Source of the DNA: a virus
DNA length: 20,649 nucleotides
Strand: one strand, 5' to 3'
IMG/VR virus record: IMGVR_UViG_3300020185_000312
Coordinates: 1 to 20,649 of that record
Shown one piece after another: positions 2,721 through 15,516 of this stretch. The notes beneath the pieces were generated by a model, which ran no database searches, was not told the origin of the DNA, and saw only the letters and a program-made list of their open reading frames with translations. A program made the translations under genes and the position numbers. Each line of letters starts with the position of its first letter. The first letter of the stretch is position 1.

Positions 2721-2993
2721 ATGAAAAAACTAAACACTATTTTATACATTCTAATTTTGAGTTTCTTAATTACAGGATGTGCAGACGTAAGCCCTAACGC
2801 AATCGATTGCGTTAATGAATCTTCTTATGGATTCTTTGGGGGTTTATGGCATGGACTAATATCAATATTTTCTTTTATAGGAAGCCTGTTTATGGATGAT
2901 GTGGCAGTGTATGCCTATAACAACAATGGAGCCTTTTATGATTTTGGTTTTTTACTGGGGGTTGGGGCTTTTGCTTCTCGTGCGACAAAGTAG
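2721..2993 (+). CDS. small lipoprotein-like membrane protein
   Basis: The 90-residue product starts with a signal peptide (KKLNTILYILILSFLITGC) whose lipobox L-I-T-G-C would make C20 the lipidated residue. The mature part has a hydrophobic stretch with FFGGLWHGLISIFSFIGSLF at about 38-57 and a second, Gly/Phe-rich one near the C-terminus (YDFGFLLGVGAF). The arrangement GLWHG-I-I-S-FIGSLF followed by a NNNG-FYDFGF motif resembles a small conserved protein family that I recall from bacterial genomes; its function is unknown to me. It follows the helicase by 4 bases and directly precedes the first DUF1566 unit, 4 bases after its stop. It could be a host-derived gene carried with the variable-protein array, for instance a membrane partner, but that is inference. 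Confidence 0.7.
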   Translation: MKKLNTILYILILSFLITGCADVSPNAIDCVNESSYGFFGGLWHGLISIFSFIGSLFMDDVAVYAYNNNGAFYDFGFLLGVGAFASRATK

Positions 2994-2997
2994 TAAT

Positions 2998-3321
2998 TTG
3001 ACAATTACAAAACACATATTACTAGAAGACAGAAAGTCAATCAACGGACTAGAAGTGTCTCATAATCTAGGGTCAATGAATTGGCATGAAGCAAAAATTG
3101 CTTGTAAAAAATTAGGACTAGGATGGAGATTGCCAACAAAAGACGAATTAAATATGCTTTATGAAAATAAGGAAGAAATTGGCGGTTTTGCTAATGTCAA
3201 CTATTGGAGTTCTACGGAGTACGGTAACGCCAGTGCGTGGAAGCAGAGTTTCGGCAGTGGTTTCCAGAACTTCAACTTTAAGGCCAGCCTCAACTATGTT
3301 CGCGCTGTTCGGGCTTCTTAA
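2998..3321 (+). CDS. DUF1566/C-type-lectin-like variable protein, unit 1
   Basis: First of three tandem genes of identical length (107 residues). The fold signature is DUF1566/Fibrobacter major paralogue type: NWHEAKIACKKLGLGWRLPT at 28-47, E50-L51, IGGF at 61-64, YWSSTE at 69-74 and the C-terminal YVRAVRAS. These domains adopt C-type-lectin-like folds and are known targets of diversity-generating retroelements. Residues 66-68 and 75-99 differ sharply between units while interleaved A80, W81, Q83, F85, G88, Q90 and K95 are fixed. There is no ATG; the only sensible start is TTG at 2998, also conserved in the other units. An ATG-initiated extension upstream was rejected because it is a shadow of the lipoprotein gene. 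The N-terminus TITKHILLED contains L-L-E, a possible prohead-protease site. Confidence 0.75.
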   Translation: MTITKHILLEDRKSINGLEVSHNLGSMNWHEAKIACKKLGLGWRLPTKDELNMLYENKEEIGGFANVNYWSSTEYGNASAWKQSFGSGFQNFNFKASLNYVRAVRAS

Positions 3322-3341
3322 CAATTTAACTATTTAACCAT

Positions 3342-3665
3342 TTGACAATTACAAAACACATACTACTAGAAGGCAAAAAGTCAATCAATGGATTAGAAGT
3401 GTCTCATATTTTGGGTATATTGAATTGGTATGACGCAAAAATTGCTTGTCAAAAATTAGGAGCAGGATGGAGATTGCCAACAATAAAGGAATTGAATATG
3501 TTTTATGAAAACAGGGAAGAAATTGGCGGTTTTGCTAGTTTCAGCTATTGGAGTTCTACGGAGAACGATAACTACTATGCGTGGAGTCAGAATTTCACCA
3601 ATGGTATACAGAGCAACTTCAATAAGTACGGCACTGGCTACGTGCGTGCTATTCGGGCTTCTTAA
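3342..3665 (+). CDS. DUF1566/C-type-lectin-like variable protein, unit 2
   Basis: Second unit, exactly 344 bp downstream of unit 1 and again 107 residues from a TTG start. It keeps the same scaffold (NWYDAKIACQKLGAGWRLPT, IGGF, YWSSTE, the A-W, Q, F, G, Q and K anchors) but has a different variable set, for example N-D-N-Y-Y at 75-79 and Y-G-T-G at 96-99. It also carries silent and conservative changes in its constant tail (GTG CGT GCT ATT instead of GTT CGC GCT GTT), showing it is an older duplicate rather than a recent copy. The 20-base spacer between units contains TTTAACTATTTAACC and no strong ribosome binding site. It is probably translated by coupling with unit 1, or else is a silent cassette; the sequence does not decide. 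Confidence 0.7.
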   Translation: MTITKHILLEGKKSINGLEVSHILGILNWYDAKIACQKLGAGWRLPTIKELNMFYENREEIGGFASFSYWSSTENDNYYAWSQNFTNGIQSNFNKYGTGYVRAIRAS

Positions 3666-3685
3666 CAATTTAACTATTTAACCAT

Positions 3686-4009
3686 TTGACAATTACAAAA
3701 CACATACTAATAGAAGGCAAAAAGTCAGTCAACGGACTAGAAGTTTCTGATAATTTGGGTATAATGAATTGGTATGACGCAAAAATTTACTGCAAAAAAT
3801 TAGGAGCAGGATGGAGATTGCCAACAAAAGACGAATTGAATATGCTTTATGAAAACAAGGAAGAAATTGGCGGTTTTGCTAGTAACTACTATTGGAGTTC
3901 TACGGAGGTCGATTACAACTATGCGTGGATTCAGAATTTCTTCAATGGTTACCAGAGCAACAACAATAAGAACTACTACAACTATGTTCGCGCTGTTCGG
4001 GCTTCTTAA
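3686..4009 (+). CDS. DUF1566/C-type-lectin-like variable protein, unit 3
   Basis: Third unit, again 344 bp on, 107 residues, TTG start. Its variable segment is closest to what a DGR template would encode: many AAC, AAT and TAC codons, giving S-N-N-N-K-N-Y-Y-N at 91-99. The scaffold residues are unchanged. The N-terminal peptide is TITKHILIEGKKS, whose HILIE is identical to the start of the capsid-like ORF at 12524 (GSHILIEK). After the stop the unit-spacing sequence is repeated once more (CAATTTAACTATTTAAC) and then the tRNA promoter begins. Function is likely ligand or receptor binding by analogy with other DUF1566 DGR targets, perhaps on the virion or host surface; that is inferred from family knowledge. 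Confidence 0.72.
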   Translation: MTITKHILIEGKKSVNGLEVSDNLGIMNWYDAKIYCKKLGAGWRLPTKDELNMLYENKEEIGGFASNYYWSSTEVDYNYAWIQNFFNGYQSNNNKNYYNYVRAVRAS

Positions 4010-4067: not shown

Positions 4068-4075
4068 TATATTTG
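4068..4075 (+). promoter_or_regulatory. Bacteroidetes-type promoter of the tRNA pair
   Basis: TATATTTG matches the TAnnTTTG -7 consensus exactly and lies about 50 bases before tRNA-Arg. No sharp TTTG -33 box is visible; the upstream stretch is T-rich. Confidence 0.5.
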
Positions 4076-4124: not shown

Positions 4125-4201
4125 GGACGGGTAGCTCAGCTGGATAGAGCATCTGCCTTCTAAGCAGACGGTCGAAGGTTCGAATCCTTCTCCGTTCACC
4201 A
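4125..4201 (+). tRNA. tRNA-Arg (TCT)
   Basis: A full cloverleaf can be folded: acceptor GGACGGG with TCCGTTC, D-arm GCTC/GAGC, anticodon stem TCTGC/GCAGA around loop CTTCTAA (anticodon TCT, reading AGA), and T-arm GAAGG-TTCGAAT-CCTTC. The discriminator is A4198 and CCA is encoded at 4199-4201. AGA is a favoured arginine codon in this AT-rich sequence, so the gene likely supplements the host pool. Confidence 0.95.
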
Positions 4202-4207
4202 TTTAAT

Positions 4208-4281
4208 GGGCCTCTAGCTCAGCTGGTTAGAGCAACTGACTCATAATCAGTAGGTCACAGGTTCGAGTCCTGTGGGGCCCA
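4208..4281 (+). tRNA. tRNA with CAT anticodon (Met or lysidine-Ile)
   Basis: Cloverleaf: acceptor GGGCCTC with GGGGCCC (including a T-G pair), D-arm GCTC/GAGC, anticodon stem ACTGA/TCAGT around CTCATAA (anticodon CAT), T-arm ACAGG-TTCGAGT-CCTGT, discriminator A4281. CCA is not encoded (GAT follows), unlike the neighbouring tRNA-Arg 6 bases upstream. Whether it is elongator Met or Ile2 (needing TilS modification) cannot be settled by eye. Its last 13 bases recur at 5086-5098. Confidence 0.92.
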
Positions 4282-4339
4282 GATAGCCAAAGTTAAAACA
4301 CTTGCACGTAGTGGCTATCGCACATCCATTTTTGGATGA

Positions 4340-5023
4340 CTAAGATTTTAACAAATTGTTCTTTGAATTTATTACCTCGGTGATGATGTCAAGATACTTT
4401 TGAGCATTTTTTGGTTTGAAGTATTTTAGCTGAGAAGCATCAATGAGAAGTAATTCAATTTTATTCTCAAGACATGCCTGGAATTTTCTTTGGTCGTTGT
4501 TTTGAATTTGTTTGAGCTTATCTTCTCCAAATATGGGTTCGTAATGGAATATGCCATTAAGTTCAATTGCAAGTTTGAAGCTCGGAATGTAGATGTCAAG
4601 TTCAGAATTTATTGCATCCTTTTGGTTGTAGTGTATTTCTAAATCTGGATATAAAGTTGAAAGTTGCCCTTCTAACCACGCTTCAAGTTTTGACCTACGA
4701 GTGCCATGAGTTTTGTGTTTATTATTGTAAGTAGCAGCACATGATTGTGAACAAAATTGGTTTTTGTATTTTTTTACTTGACTTAGGTCTCTATATGCTT
4801 CTTTGCCGCAGTTGGAACATTTACATTTAATTTTATTGTTTCCTCTGTTGTTTTGGCATTTTCTGCTACAGAATTTGATTTTGTTTTTTCTACTTCCGTT
4901 TAAGTAGGCAGTAATAAATCTTTTGTCTTTGTAGAAAGTTTCTTTGCAAACATAGCATTGGCATGGCAGTTTATCCATTCCTTTTGCTTGATTGTATTCT
5001 TCATCAGAGTATAATGGTTTCAT
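4340..5023 (-). CDS. Vsr-like EDxHD homing endonuclease with two zinc knuckles
   Basis: The 227-residue protein begins with two zinc-binding modules: C23-x2-C26 with C52-x3-C56, and C69-x2-C72 with C91-x3-C95. The C-terminal half is a very-short-patch-repair-like nuclease domain: E114 in SKLEAWLEGQL, D143 in SELDIYIPSFKLAIELNG (E154), H160 in IFHYEP and D177 in NNDQRK. This spacing fits the EDxHD class exemplified by I-Bth0305I, a phage homing endonuclease. Such enzymes cut intron- or gene-lacking alleles so that their own gene is copied in. The gene lies opposite in strand to the adjacent tRNAs, between a tRNA 3' end and a second 13-bp copy of it (5086-5098), which suggests recent insertion. 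A 9-bp inverted repeat just before the start may limit translation. It may be free-standing or part of a larger element interrupting the structured RNA region. Confidence 0.85.
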   Translation of the reverse strand: MKPLYSDEEYNQAKGMDKLPCQCYVCKETFYKDKRFITAYLNGSRKNKIKFCSRKCQNNRGNNKIKCKCSNCGKEAYRDLSQVKKYKNQFCSQSCAATYNNKHKTHGTRRSKLEAWLEGQLSTLYPDLEIHYNQKDAINSELDIYIPSFKLAIELNGIFHYEPIFGEDKLKQIQNNDQRKFQACLENKIELLLIDASQLKYFKPKNAQKYLDIITEVINSKNNLLKS

Positions 5024-5025
5024 AT

Positions 5026-5057
5026 CTCATTTTCATATAAATAGTTTAGAAAATGAG
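5026..5057 (-). promoter_or_regulatory. hairpin immediately upstream of the homing endonuclease start
   Basis: A 9-bp perfect inverted repeat (CTCATTTTC at 5026-5034 and GAAAATGAG at 5049-5057) with a 14-base loop ends two bases before the ATG at 5021-5023. In T4, hairpins that hide the ribosome binding site keep homing endonuclease genes silent in early transcripts; this one could act the same way. It might also be a weak terminator. Confidence 0.45.
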
Positions 5058-5085
5058 TTTTCGAAACAAAATGTGCCCACAAAAC

Positions 5086-5098
5086 CCTGTGGGGCCCA
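5086..5098 (+). repeat. 13-bp copy of the tRNA(CAT) 3' end
   Basis: CCTGTGGGGCCCA at 5086-5098 is identical to 4269-4281, the 3' end of the CAT tRNA. The two copies bracket the homing endonuclease gene and its leader. The copy can also pair with the preceding GCCCACA to make a local hairpin. It looks like an attachment-site or target duplication, or gene-conversion tract, left by insertion. Confidence 0.6.
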
Positions 5099-5580
5099 CT
5101 CAAATATTTTATCATTGCAAGCAGCTGTCACCTTCAACTTTAATAAGGAGAGTTTAATAGTCACTTCTTAGACACTGCTTGCATCTTATTAAGCCTGACA
5201 CAGCAGGTTTATAGAGGTTGTACGGTCCAAATTTACTCTATAAAATCTCATGGGACCTATGCTGGTGACAATTCCAGACGCGGAGATGAGATGAAACCTT
5301 AGACACTTAATTAATGTCTGTATGGGATTAAGCCGTGAAAGAACGGGGCAGACTGTGAAAAAAACTGCCCCTTTTTAAGACATTTAAAATTCGTGCTGCT
5401 TAATCAACGGCTAGTCCAGTCCATAGGACGATTAGAAATGGTATGATAACCATAATGGAGATACTCCAACAGTAGTTAAGTCTACACAAGTGTTCAGGAT
5501 AGGTGTGAGTCGTTGTTGATGCCTTGCCGCCAGGTATTGGAAGAAGCGTCCTTGAGATAGCACCCGCTTGATGTTGGAAT
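5099..5580 (+). ncRNA. large structured non-coding RNA candidate
   Basis: About 480 bases with no credible reading frame but clearly higher GC and dense pairing. Elements seen: GCAAGCAG (5117-5124) with CTGCTTGC (5175-5182); CAGCA (5201-5205) with TGCTG (5260-5264) enclosing TATAGAG (5210-5216) with CTCTATA (5236-5242) interleaved with GGTCC (5224-5228) and GGACC (5253-5257), i.e. a pseudoknot; AGACA/TGTCT at 5301-5319; GGGGCAG/CTGCCCC at 5345-5371; GTCC-ATA-GGAC at 5419-5429; ATGGT/ACCAT at 5438-5453; TGGAG-ATA-CTCCA at 5456-5468; and TCCAACA (5465-5471) as an alternative partner of TGTTGGA (5572-5578). Large ornate RNAs such as GOLLD and ROOL lie beside tRNA genes in phages, so membership in such a class is plausible but unproven. 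The plus strand is chosen because the tRNAs are on it. Ends are approximate. Confidence 0.6.
5345..5376 (+). terminator. terminator-like hairpin inside the structured RNA region
   Basis: A perfect 7-bp GC-rich stem (GGGGCAG with CTGCCCC, 13-base loop) is directly followed by TTTTT at 5372-5376. It could end the RNA at about 5376, making the downstream 200 bases a separate RNA, or be an ordinary internal stem, since folded sequence continues after it. Confidence 0.5.
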
Positions 5581-5584
5581 TAAT

Positions 5585-6283
5585 TTAAATAAGCTCTATT
5601 AACTCCTCAAATTGTTTTTCTGATAGTCTATCGAAAGATATTTTTTTCTTGATATTTTTAGAATATATTAGCTCTTCATTTGGCTCATCTATATACCAAT
5701 CTTTTCCTCCAATTTTTACTTTAGGTAAATCTAAGTCTATTTTTTTTCTACTTCCTGATTTAGATTTTTTACTTTCACCACTCAATTTTGTAAAGAATAA
5801 TTCGTTTTTTATTATTCTATCAACTCTTAATTTTTCTTTTGTTTGTTGGATATAGTTTTTAGCAAAATATATTGTTTGTATTTCATTTCTCCTAATTATA
5901 ACATATATTTCATTTCCATTGCTATTTGTTTTTTTATCCACAAATAATAAGTTTTTTCCTATAGAATCTATTTTATCATCTTCAGAATAATAATTTATTT
6001 CATCTGGGTTTATTTTTATATATGTTAGTCTTATTCCAAAATCTTCATCTTCTGGGAATTTGTAATCTTCTATAAATTTATACTTCTTTTTTATAGACTC
6101 TTTTTCGCCATTACTTAAGTTGTATGTTCCTACAGTTTTATACTCTCCAACAGAACCTTCCTTTTCATATCCTACTGGTATATTTTTTCTATCTAAAAAC
6201 CTTTCAGACAACCTATCTAGAGAATGCACCCCAGAAAAGGCTTCTTCTAAAATTTCTTTAACGATTTTTCTAATATAATTCAT
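5585..6283 (-). CDS. tagged phage protein of unknown function
   Basis: The 232-residue product starts with the helical tag MNYIRKIVKEILEEAFSG, related to the tags at 747, 10795, 14713 and 15516. The start at 6283 is preferred over an ATG six codons upstream at 6301 because the tag begins here. Next comes HSLDRLSERFLDR at about residues 20-32, a motif style I recall from small phage proteins, then a mixed alpha/beta region with IGKNLLFVDKK and EIYVIIRRNEIQTIYFAKN, reminiscent of a small nuclease/toxin-like sheet but without recognisable catalytic residues. A basic linker (KKSKSGSRKK) leads to a C-terminal helix pair. The (I/L)-x-E sites V-K-E and L-E-E|A fit prohead processing, so it may be packaged; the catalytic role, if any, is unknown. 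It is divergent from the kinase gene at 6314. Confidence 0.72.
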   Translation of the reverse strand: MNYIRKIVKEILEEAFSGVHSLDRLSERFLDRKNIPVGYEKEGSVGEYKTVGTYNLSNGEKESIKKKYKFIEDYKFPEDEDFGIRLTYIKINPDEINYYSEDDKIDSIGKNLLFVDKKTNSNGNEIYVIIRRNEIQTIYFAKNYIQQTKEKLRVDRIIKNELFFTKLSGESKKSKSGSRKKIDLDLPKVKIGGKDWYIDEPNEELIYSKNIKKKISFDRLSEKQFEELIELI

Positions 6284-6290
6284 ACATTTG
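6283..6290 (+). promoter_or_regulatory. TAnnTTTG promoter element before the kinase gene
   Basis: TACATTTG matches the Bacteroidetes -7 consensus and lies 23 bases before the ATG at 6314. It overlaps the start codon of the divergent tagged gene. ATATTTATTA, a recurrent pre-start element of this window, lies at 6302-6311. Confidence 0.45.
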
Positions 6291-6313
6291 TAAATAGTCA
6301 CATATTTATTATT

Positions 6314-10360: not shown

Positions 10361-10795
10361 TTATGGGTATTGAAATTCAATCTCAATAGATTTATAATCA
10401 TTATTTATTGATACCGCTGTTGGGTAAAGGCTGTTTGAATTTTCTGTTTTTTCTATGTTCAACTTAAACCCTTCAAAACTATCGCCGTCAATAATGCCTG
10501 AGCCAAAGTCATAAACTTTTTCAATATTTTCTAATTCATCCTCCCATGAATCTTCTGTTCCTCTATATACTTCAGAGTTTAAAGTCAATTTATGAATGTT
10601 AGGCTTTAATACACTGAATCCATATGTCTTTTCGCTAGTAAATAAGCTCCATTCTACCGTTGCAGTGGCGTCTCCAAAATAATCGTTTGGCCCCAGCACA
10701 TCTTTCATATATAAATGTAAATTTACTTTTGTCACATACGTTTCTGAATCCGAACTTAATGCTTCTCTTATTATTTTCCTAATTTCATGCTTCAT
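10361..10795 (-). CDS. tagged beta-rich protein, unknown function
   Basis: The 144-residue protein opens with MKHEIRKIIREALSS, the recurrent tag, here with I-R-E|A exactly as the T4 prohead-protease rule (I/L)-x-E|A predicts. The rest alternates polar and hydrophobic residues (YVTKVNLHLYMKDVL, GDATATVEWSLFTSEKTYGFSVL, FEGFKLNIEKT, SIEIEFQYP), as expected for an all-beta domain. No family is recognised. ATATTTATTAAC abuts the ATG. It has its own terminator (10287-10319) and is divergent from the YqeY-like gene at 10868. Virion or internal capsid protein is a guess based on the tag. Confidence 0.7.
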   Translation of the reverse strand: MKHEIRKIIREALSSDSETYVTKVNLHLYMKDVLGPNDYFGDATATVEWSLFTSEKTYGFSVLKPNIHKLTLNSEVYRGTEDSWEDELENIEKVYDFGSGIIDGDSFEGFKLNIEKTENSNSLYPTAVSINNDYKSIEIEFQYP

Positions 10796-11576: not shown

Positions 11577-12298
11577 TTAGAACCAGTGTAATTTTTACGT
11601 GGTTCCATCTTTTCGTAAAAACCTTCTTTAGAGCCCTTCCAATCCCAAGGCAAACCATGTTCTATGTTGTATTCTAATTGTGTATCAGATACTCCCTTTA
11701 GTTTTAATAAAGCCTTTTTCAATAAGGGTATATTATCCTTTGCCATGGATTCAGAGATAACATCTCTTACAATCATTCTTACTGATTCATTTATTTTAAA
11801 ATCTTCAGAATCAATAGCTTTTAAGTAAGATGTTGAATCTTTTTGATATCTAGCTAAAGTTTTTAGTTCATCTTTTAAGTCATCATCTAATTCCACCAAA
11901 TCAGCTTGAGTGTTTTCATAATCTTCTAATCCTTTTCCTATAACTAAAGAATCTAAGTTGTCATTTATATAATTTTCTAACACTTCTTCGTTCAGTTCCC
12001 AATCTCCCAATTCTTCGTCAGGCATTCCATCTTCATCAAAGTCAACGCCTAAAATGCTCCTTGTTGCATAAGGTTCTAACTCATCTTTGTCTAAAAGATA
12101 AATGTTAAATATATATTTTTTACCAGATGATTTATCTTGCAAAACAGCAATTTCGCTGTTATCACTAAATATTACGTCCATTTTATATTCTTTAGCCTCT
12201 TTTCCCATTTTTTGATTTTCACCATCTCTCCATGGTGCGTCAGACATGTACTCTGCACCCATGGGTAAGTTGCTATTATTTTCATTTATGTTTTTCAT
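11573..12298 (-). CDS. acidic phage protein with internal tag motif, unknown function
   Basis: The 241-residue protein is strongly acidic. Its N-terminus (NLPMGAEYMSDAPWRDGE) looks like an extended structural arm. A small domain at about 38-70 (YKMDVIFSDNSEIAVLQDKSSGKKYIFNIYLL) is probably beta-sheet, followed by a D/E-rich stretch with DFDEDGMPDEELGDWELNEEVLENYI. At about 170-185 FKINESVRMIVRDVISESMA resembles the tags at other N-termini but lies internally. The C-terminal 60 residues contain a short helix-rich part ending in a Trp/Lys section (GLPWDWKGSKEGFYEKM). I do not recognise the family. It follows the 44-residue basic protein gene by 6 bases on the minus strand and may share its transcript. 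Confidence 0.7.
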   Translation of the reverse strand: MKNINENNSNLPMGAEYMSDAPWRDGENQKMGKEAKEYKMDVIFSDNSEIAVLQDKSSGKKYIFNIYLLDKDELEPYATRSILGVDFDEDGMPDEELGDWELNEEVLENYINDNLDSLVIGKGLEDYENTQADLVELDDDLKDELKTLARYQKDSTSYLKAIDSEDFKINESVRMIVRDVISESMAKDNIPLLKKALLKLKGVSDTQLEYNIEHGLPWDWKGSKEGFYEKMEPRKNYTGSN

Positions 12299-12304
12299 AG
12301 TAAT

Positions 12305-12439
12305 TTATTTTCCTTGACCTCTATATTTTTTTTTGTAATACTTTGCACCTTTAGAATTAGAATTTTTACTCTTAGCATGAATACCAGGCCTTTTCTTTTT
12401 CATTTCACCTGATTTGTTTCCATTGGATAATTTTGCCAT
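12305..12439 (-). CDS. 44-residue highly basic protein
   Basis: A short frame of 45 codons encodes a Lys/Arg/Gly/Ser-rich protein: start MAKLSNGNKSGEMKKK, then RPGIHAKSKNSNSKGAKYY and end KKKYRGQGK. There are no acidic residues beyond one Glu. The R-P-G-I-H-A-K and YRGQGK motifs look deliberately conserved and I believe similar short proteins occur in other marine and Bacteroidetes genomes, but the function is unknown; a nucleic-acid-binding role is suggested by charge. The start at 12439 has ATATTTATTA (12463-12472, minus strand) about 24 bases upstream, and the gene precedes the acidic protein by 6 bases. Positive and acidic products side by side could pair up, but that is speculation. Confidence 0.7.
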   Translation of the reverse strand: MAKLSNGNKSGEMKKKRPGIHAKSKNSNSKGAKYYKKKYRGQGK

Positions 12440-13852: not shown

Positions 13853-14713
13853 TTATCCTATTTTTTCTATTTCAGAAATGATTTTATTTGCTTGAATTTG
13901 TAATTCTTTTATTTTTTCATTTCTTGAAGCTTCTTCTTTGAAAATTCTTCTAATTTCACTTTCACTAATAGGTTCATGATTTTCTGTAAACTTACCACTT
14001 ACACCAGCCATTTTTCTGTCTTTATATGCTGCTGCCAATGTAGGCTTTCCTTTTAGTTCTACAATTCTAATATCTTGCTTGCTAACATCTAATCCATCCC
14101 ATTTATTTTTAGGAGTTAATACATTATCAACAAAAGATTGAACTCTTGATTTTAAATCAGCCTTTTCTTCATCAGTCAACTCTCTTACAACTTGACCAGT
14201 GGTTAATTTGTCTAGACCTTTCCATTCTATCATTTCACCTTTATCTATTGCAGTTTCAACAGCTTTCTTAGCAAGAGATATAGCTTCCTCTCCTTTCTTT
14301 GGGTCTTTTTTAAACATGCTCATTAAACCTTCTTCAACACCTTCGTTTTCTTCAATGCCTTCATTTTCTTCAACGCCTTCATTTTCTTCAATGCCTTCGT
14401 TTTCTTCAACGCCTTCATTTTCTTCAATGCCTTCGTTTTCAGCCTTTAATTCAGCTTTATCCTCATCAGACATTGCTTTTGCAGCATCTTCTAATTCTTT
14501 CATTGCATCAGCCATCTCTTTAGCTTCTGGTGTTTCTGGCATTTCTTCCGCAACTTCAGCAGCCGCTTCTATATCCACTTCTTCTTCCATGCTATAATTT
14601 TCCTTCAATGCTTCTTGAATTGTTGCTTTTTTAGATTTTAAAGATTGTATTTTTAAAAATCTATATGCCTCTTCTTTTATTATTTGATTAAGCTCTTTTT
14701 TTGAAATTTTCAT
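13853..14713 (-). CDS. acidic repeat protein with IxE tag (scaffold- or internal-protein-like)
   Basis: The 286-residue protein starts MKISKKELNQIIKEEA and has a second conserved block KKATIQEALKEN at 28-39; both contain (I/L)-x-E followed by A or E. The neighbouring gene at 15516 shares MKISK-x-EL-x-x-x-I and ATIQE-S. Then comes an Ala/Glu/Met-rich helical region (EAAAEVAEEMPETPEAKEMADAM), six copies of ENEG(I/V)E at 92-127, a globular region from about 130 to 240 with GLMSMFKKDPKKGEEA and LTDEEKADLKSRVQSFVDNV, and a C-terminal IFKEEASRNEKIKELQIQANKIISEIEKIG coiled-coil-like helix with another KEE-A. High acidity and tags recall T4 core/internal proteins. It is 2 bases downstream of the 15516 gene, so co-transcribed. 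The exact function is unknown. Confidence 0.75.
   Translation of the reverse strand: MKISKKELNQIIKEEAYRFLKIQSLKSKKATIQEALKENYSMEEEVDIEAAAEVAEEMPETPEAKEMADAMKELEDAAKAMSDEDKAELKAENEGIEENEGVEENEGIEENEGVEENEGIEENEGVEEGLMSMFKKDPKKGEEAISLAKKAVETAIDKGEMIEWKGLDKLTTGQVVRELTDEEKADLKSRVQSFVDNVLTPKNKWDGLDVSKQDIRIVELKGKPTLAAAYKDRKMAGVSGKFTENHEPISESEIRRIFKEEASRNEKIKELQIQANKIISEIEKIG
14333..14440 (-). repeat. six 18-bp tandem repeats coding ENEG(I/V)E
   Basis: Six in-frame copies of an 18-base unit alternate between I and V versions (so three 36-base pairs), within the acidic repeat protein. The alternation indicates growth by duplication of a two-unit block. Confidence 0.9.
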
Positions 14714-14715
14714 GA

Positions 14716-15516
14716 TTATTTATTTTGTAATATTTCTTTTATTTCCTCACTAACATTGCCACCATTAGACTCTATTGCTTCAGACAAAGTCTTTAACTGA
14801 CTAATTAATTGCTCTTTTTTAGTGTTGTCCTTATAAGACTTAACAGCTTTTTTAGCTTCTGATAAAATAAATGTTTTCAACTCTTTTTTAGTATAAGATT
14901 CTTTTAAATCTTTTTCTATATTACTTCCATCAATCTCTATCCCAGCAGCAATTCTATCTGTAGGCTCTTCAGCGTCTTCTTCAGGCATTCTTTCATGAAC
15001 TTCAGCTTTAGCTTGACCAGCAGTGTGAGAATTTCCTTTTTTCTCATCTCCAGCAGAAACATAAGTTTTAGCTTTTTCGTCTACTAATTTATCTTCAGAG
15101 TTCATTTCTAAATCTTCAACTCTTTCATCAAATGGTCCAGAAGCATCTGTTCCTTGAATATCTTTTTTAGATGTAAAATTAGCTTTAGCCTGTCCTTTAG
15201 TGTGTGTATCTGCACCTTTCTTTGCGCCAGCATCAACCTTTACAGCTACCGAAGCCTTTTTGTCAGAACCTTCAACATTATCTTTTGAGTTCATTTTTGG
15301 CATTTTTTCTACTTCGCCTTCTTTTTCTAATTTTTTAGAAGGGTCTTTATATACCAATGCCTTATCAGAGTCGCCTAGTTCATCATTTGAATTCATATCA
15401 ACATCGTATACGTTCATTGAATCTGTAACCGCTTCTGACTCTTGAATAGTAGCCCTTTTTATAGACTTTGCTTCATCTCTAATCATGTCTATAAGTTCTT
15501 GTTTGCTAATTTTCAT
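14716..15516 (-). CDS. tagged acidic/basic repeat protein, paralogous N-terminus
   Basis: The 266-residue protein starts MKISKQELIDMIRDEAKSIKRATIQES, paralogous over about 30 residues with the following gene. The middle is low-complexity and contains three related blocks beginning MNSNDELGDSDKALVY (about 41-56), MNSKDNVEGSDKKAS (about 75-89) and MNSEDKLVDEKAKTYV (about 139-154); the last two go on to D(A/E)KKG-x-x-HT-x-GQAKA. After D-x-A-A-G-I-E-I-D a C-terminal tag-like helix follows (YTKKELKTFILSEAKKAVKSYK). Nothing catalytic is visible. Repeats, tag and pairing with another acidic protein suggest a core or internal virion protein cut by the prohead protease. TATAAATA/TATTTATA lies at 15554-15561 upstream. 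Confidence 0.74.
   Translation of the reverse strand: MKISKQELIDMIRDEAKSIKRATIQESEAVTDSMNVYDVDMNSNDELGDSDKALVYKDPSKKLEKEGEVEKMPKMNSKDNVEGSDKKASVAVKVDAGAKKGADTHTKGQAKANFTSKKDIQGTDASGPFDERVEDLEMNSEDKLVDEKAKTYVSAGDEKKGNSHTAGQAKAEVHERMPEEDAEEPTDRIAAGIEIDGSNIEKDLKESYTKKELKTFILSEAKKAVKSYKDNTKKEQLISQLKTLSEAIESNGGNVSEEIKEILQNK

Follow-up and report, generated by a model that had tools for sequence, protein, structure and literature searches.

Three separable structured RNA modules in tandem beside tRNA genes of a phage

GOLLD and ROOL are phage RNAs of ~600-850 nt that lie near tRNA islands, carry predicted pseudoknots and have an unexplained function; GOLLD often exceeds 800 nt and has a universally conserved 3' region, and one marine GOLLD is located downstream of a Met-tRNA (PMC12286853). 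STAXI, a repeated pseudoknot found near DNA-processing genes, is a comparatively defined candidate motif (PMC2864571).

The window analyzed here is a 20,649-nt stretch of DNA from an uncultivated phage (IMG/VR record IMGVR_UViG_3300020185_000312, positions 1 to 20,649; G000 below). An earlier note on its sequence had proposed one large structured RNA at 5099-5580, possibly a member of GOLLD or ROOL or else a new class. The region is indeed structured, noncoding, adjacent to tRNA genes and kept in relatives, but it is not one large RNA: the true element extends over ~5113-5584 and is composed of three modules, A, B and C (Table 1).

Infernal searches with the Rfam models of GOLLD (RF02032), ROOL, tmRNA, RNase P and group I introns gave no match in 5099-5580 at the gathering threshold or at E<=10, so that membership in GOLLD or ROOL is not borne out. 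No other Rfam family matched meaningfully at either threshold, and L012 and L013, two contigs with copies of module B, gave nothing beyond sub-threshold chance matches; the region thus falls in no described Rfam family. The same search recovered a group I intron in a related phage (see below), serving as a positive control. No tRNA-like domain was detected within 5099-5580 by ARAGORN or Rfam.

The locus and its tRNA neighborhood

The stretch 5099-5580 is gene-free, as had been claimed. Stop codons are abundant in every reading frame, no open reading frame of at least 50 amino acids fills it, and a convergent gene ending at 5585 bounds it downstream. A coding gene with errors is ruled out by the stops in all frames together with the covarying stems described below. 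The raised GC content that had been noticed was also confirmed, at 0.411 against 0.307 for the window, ranking second among 1,009 segments of equal size. Folded as a single sequence, the whole region is weakly more stable than its shuffles (z -1.60; 7/100 shuffles), and module A alone (first 79 nt) is clearly so (z -3.28); the decisive evidence of structure is the covariation in B and C described below.

Upstream, a promoter-like site and a leader precede the two tRNA genes. The promoter-like TATATTTG fits TAnnTTTG, the Bacteroidota -7 type. The sequence TAnATTTGTCGTTA is kept before tRNA-Arg in the window and in all five related phages (G001-G005), despite G005 being only ~68-70% alike there. 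The leader word listed in Table 1 is probably a boxA. At a guess, from promoter and leader style only, the host belongs to the Bacteroidota. No conserved promoter was found directly before A, B or C.

In G003 the modules directly follow tRNA-Met. In the window, an insertion carrying an endonuclease gene separates the two, and on its far side the last 13 nt of the tRNA end are repeated (CCTGTGGGGCCCA, 4269-4281 and again 5086-5098).

The same locus is variable in other relatives. In G004 a group I intron (L005 7225-7461, minus strand; 80.8 bits) sits right after the tRNA-Met anticodon, in the anticodon loop; behind it comes a putative endonuclease gene of another, zinc-finger type. G005 holds several tRNA-like sequences between tRNA-Arg and tRNA-Met (L006 5560-5880, minus strand), whose acceptor stem and T arm are good but which lack normal D and anticodon arms; one scored 27.7 bits as a tRNA, just below the cut-off, and two contain the complementary words GACGTACA/TGTACGTC. 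Immediately ahead of module A, G001 and G004 carry a tRNA-like element of class II that is degenerate (GCGATAATGGTG...TTGAAATCGC) and whose anticodon-like loop reads CAT.

Elsewhere in the window, three tandem paralogues of 107-141 amino acids (2896-4009) share a YWSSTE motif and differ mainly near their C-terminal ends, a pattern that we take to resemble targets of diversity-generating retroelements; no reverse transcriptase was recognized among the window proteins examined. Many unrelated window proteins share a similar basic N-terminal helix, such as MKISKxELxxxIxxEA, as a kind of common tag.

Table 1 Features of the window and of two related contigs (window coordinates unless a contig is named).
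Feature	Position	Strand	Remarks
Promoter-like TATATTTG	4068-4075	+	conserved GTCGTTA follows
boxA-like GTTCTTTGAAA	4093-4103	+	tRNA operon leader; conserved in window and G001-G005
tRNA-Arg(tct)	4125-4201	+	ARAGORN; Rfam 68.3 bits
tRNA-Met(cat)	4207-4282	+	ARAGORN, Rfam
Insertion between tRNA-Met and module A	4282-5098		absent in G003
Endonuclease gene inside insertion	4340-5023	-	
Module A	5113-5191	+	long hairpin; 6 relatives, 77-93% identity
Module B	5191-5377	+	8 relatives; possible H-type pseudoknot; intrinsic terminator at its 3' end
Module C	5391-5584	+	multi-helix; 6 relatives, covariation
Class-II tRNA-like element	L002 6200-6300; L005 6195-6275	-	
Basic N-terminal helix proteins	400-855, 5585-6301, 10361-10795, 13853-14713, 14716-15516		

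Structure and covariation of the modules

Module A is built on the 8-bp long-range pairing recognized from the sequence alone, which is exact (GCAAGCAG 5117-5124 with CTGCTTGC 5175-5182) and is extended by 5126-5129/5171-5174. An inner hairpin (5145-5150/5164-5169) and the conserved loop GAGAGTTTAATAGTC complete it. The loop may bear a 10-nt likeness to the 5' end of 16S rRNA. The stems are never broken in the six relatives; they vary hardly at all between them and give no covariation signal either way.

Module B begins with a P1 helix (5191-5197/5204-5210) and contains a hairpin at 5262-5265/5274-5277 and another, starting near 5301, that covaries and whose pairing is left intact by a 12-nt insert in two relatives. 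On the evidence of the alignment, the module ends in an intrinsic terminator on the plus strand (5345-5376; stem 5345-5351/5365-5371 and U5). A terminator pattern scan with a loop limit of 8 had missed it, its loop being 13 nt. The terminator stem carries a compensatory change in the unrelated phage G007, from GGGGCAG/CTGCCCC to GAGGGTAG/CTACCCTC.

The interleaved pairings proposed for this part of the locus are present: TATAGAG (5210-5216) with CTCTATA (5236-5242), and GGTCC (5224-5228) with GGACC (5253-5257). The cores of both helices (AUAGAG/CUCUAU and GGUCC/GGACC) occur, nearly invariant, in 8/8 sequences, inside or next to 28 nt that show no variation at all, with a single U-A to U-G change. 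An H-type pseudoknot in module B is thus a plausible, conserved candidate. CAGCA (5201-5205) and TGCTG (5260-5264), described as enclosing these pairings, do occur, but their enclosing role was rejected: they compete with the local hairpins CCTG/CAGG and CTGG/CCAG, are shortened in one relative, lack covariation support and are not kept across relatives. A possible long-range ATCTCAT/ATGAGAT stem (~5242-5292) is likewise lost across relatives.

Module C is closed by a helix of UCCAACA (5465-5471) and UGUUGGA (5572-5578), inside which lie GUAG/CUAC (5472-5475/5482-5485), CAAGUG/CGCUUG (5487-5492/5565-5570) and GGUGU/GCACC; its 5' domain consists of small hairpins. Module C was found to lack both a promoter and a terminator. 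Words resembling group I R/S elements (CTTGAGATAG) were considered and rejected, as the fold is nested and gives no Rfam match.

Homologues were compared for covariation, with 5-8 homologues per module, a small sample from whose alignments the structures themselves were derived. Two-sided compensatory changes in B and C exceeded shuffled and slid controls. In the 43-pair model of module B, 97.3% of cells are paired, and two-sided changes affect four pairs (seven cells, against 2.0 and 2.3 in shuffles). The 55-pair model of module C, also with 97.3% of cells paired, has such changes at six pairs (nine cells, against 3.0 and 3.3 in shuffles and at most 2 in slid controls), for example UCCRACA/UGUYGGA and the replacement of GGUGU/GCACC by GGUGG/CCACC. 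The ratio of G-U to A-C cells is that expected of a plus-strand RNA, with 34 G-U against 2 A-C cells in B and 43 against 2 in C, counted on structures that were themselves chosen on the plus strand. At the level of sequence comparison, B and C are shown to be RNAs read from the plus strand.

Distribution and exchange among phages

Related phage contigs were found through the adjacent 238-aa gene, which retrieved five (G001-G005). Four of these (G001-G004; L002-L005) hold the sequence from 5117 up to the adjacent gene at 80-94% DNA identity, so that, with the window, the A-B-C tandem follows tRNA-Met in five phages. The homologous locus of G005 (L006) contains no module, and covariance models give no match there; the interval from tRNA-Met to the homologous gene has only a pair of short repeats and one plain terminator.

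Pattern scans over 2.9 million viral contigs returned module fragments from contigs with no other match to the region. Module B occurs without A and C in G006 (L011) and G008 (L013), and in G007 (L012) it stands apart from module A; all three copies have 90-93% identity (match from 5187/5191-5377). The module A copy of G007 (49551-49633, 89% to 5113-5197) lies 2.4 kb from its module B. Module C appears without A and B in G009 (L016; G009 positions 12147-12340, 80% to 5392-5587). Each module is therefore found without its tandem partners in unrelated phages, which contradicts the single RNA proposed earlier. In an all-against-all comparison, no nucleotide similarity besides the modules and tRNAs was seen between G000-G005 and G006, G007, G008 or G009. 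When 0.52 Mb were searched with covariance models of A, B and C, no contig had more than one copy of a module and no further sites appeared. Matches in L014 and L015 (16-18 nt only) and in L063 (18 nt only), without further similarity, were set aside as chance. Phage, plasmid and genome collections gave no convincing relative, and no close cultured relative was found by protein.

The 109-kb phage G007 also has an 850-nt gene-free stretch (44945-45800; L037 4945-5800) with z -4.9 against shuffles, for which no Rfam family matched; from its predicted folding it is a candidate for another large phage RNA.

The modules recombine INDEPENDENTLY, with identity matrices that disagree block by block. 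In module B, G001 matches the unrelated G007 at 95.7% identity but the related G002 and G004 at 84-85% (84.5% for G004). Module C is 96.8% identical between G002 and G003, whose adjacent gene is 82.1% identical. The window shares 96% of the adjacent gene with G001 and 80% with G004, while its module C is 96% identical to that of G004. These mosaic identities show modules recombining independently of the blocks around them; comparison also shows them to be separable units, present in single copy per contig examined.

Possible roles and comparison with known RNAs

We give an even chance to the reading that the three structured noncoding RNA modules of this tandem are independent of each other, are exchanged horizontally and most likely act as stable stand-alone RNAs in trans. 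The A-B RNA would form the 3' part of a tRNA-Arg/tRNA-Met transcript that starts at the conserved promoter-like site before tRNA-Arg and stops at the module B terminator, and host processing of the tRNA 3' end would free it. Module C would have to be transcribed by read-through or as part of a host transcript. Elsewhere, each module would ride the 3' end of whichever gene it landed behind. Such RNAs would be of use to every phage with the same group of hosts, which would account for the modules traveling as parts into gene neighborhoods that differ each time. More tentatively, they may represent three new phage RNA classes used as interchangeable parts, the tandem being a cassette that acts in trans on the shared host or on competing phages.

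The surroundings of the solo copies bear on all alternatives. All lie in sense direction between co-directional genes. Module B of G007 starts at the upstream stop codon, as does module A of the same phage at another stop; module C of G009 starts 6 nt past a stop; and in G006 and G008 the upstream reading frame runs into module B. The solo copies thus begin at or within ~7 nt of an upstream stop, or are entered by the upstream frame. The next start codon follows ~23-26 nt after module B in G007 and G008 and ~21 nt after C in G009. Neighboring proteins have no convincing relation to each other, and tRNA genes adjoin the modules in the window's group only, not the solo copies inspected.

This placement is what would be expected of cis-acting 3'-end elements that terminate, insulate or protect upstream transcripts and have no role once separated. 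We regard this main rival as unlikely, yet it draws further on the covarying stem of the module B terminator, on the resemblance of the module A outer stem to a hairpin in G007 that is an ordinary terminator (GCAAGTAG..CTACTTGC-T6; covariance-model match, E 0.047) and on the plain terminator at the same place in G005. Termination, however, takes ~30 nt, whereas sequence and structure are conserved here over 80-190 nt; module C lacks a terminator, and large stretches left unpaired in the models are invariant.

That the modules are selfish mobile sequences, carried for instance by homing endonucleases and needing structure only for their own spread, appears improbable. The tRNA locus is a hotspot, with the endonuclease gene and 13-nt tRNA-end repeat of the window and the endonuclease-like gene and group I intron of G004, and the frames that enter module B in G006 and G008 look like insertion at a gene end. 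Against this, no endonuclease gene was recognized directly beside the solo copies inspected, each contig has a single copy, and neither a catalytic or intron signature nor a target-site duplication around the modules was seen.

Riboswitch- or attenuator-like leaders, in which B (pseudoknot and terminator) and C regulate the next downstream gene, seem decidedly improbable. The position of the solo copies between co-directional genes, with B and C ~20-25 nt ahead of the next start codon, is a point against the stand-alone reading, as cis-regulation also predicts it; the lack of a conserved promoter directly before each module is another. That the modules are dedicated to regulating a single gene family in cis is nevertheless unlikely, because the proteins encoded downstream have no convincing relation to one another, with no recurrent regulated gene found, and because no plus-strand gene follows B or C in G000-G004. 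No alternative antiterminator strand in B changes together with the G007 terminator, and no Rfam riboswitch matched.

One large RNA of the GOLLD/ROOL type, with the solo modules as fragments, is scarcely tenable: five phages keep the modules in tandem and in the same order behind tRNA-Met, a position also described for a marine GOLLD (PMC12286853), but neither Rfam model matches, a terminator interrupts the region, and the modules recombine separately.

A locus comparable to those of GOLLD and ROOL here resolves into three small exchangeable modules with defined boundaries, each small enough to be synthesized, folded and tested singly. Phages that are otherwise unrelated have no DNA in common besides tRNAs and these modules, which is a strong, if circumstantial, indication of a transferable function.

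With GOLLD and ROOL the locus shares its setting only, as structured phage noncoding RNA by tRNA genes with a predicted pseudoknot; it differs in comprising three modules of ~80, 187 and 194 nt (~470 nt in total), each separable, with a terminator in mid-region. Like STAXI and similar pseudoknot-bearing metagenome motifs, the modules, of which B has a possible pseudoknot, are candidate RNAs known from comparative analysis alone, but they match nothing in the Rfam library. Phage tRNA group I introns (RF00028) occupy the same locus, in tRNA-Met of G004, and module C is of similar size; unlike these introns, the modules interrupt no gene that needs splicing and have no Rfam match. Some bacterial small RNAs derive from 3' ends and close with an intrinsic terminator. 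Module B resembles them in following a stop codon or a tRNA and in its terminator, and departs from them in moving as a unit between unrelated genes and phages.
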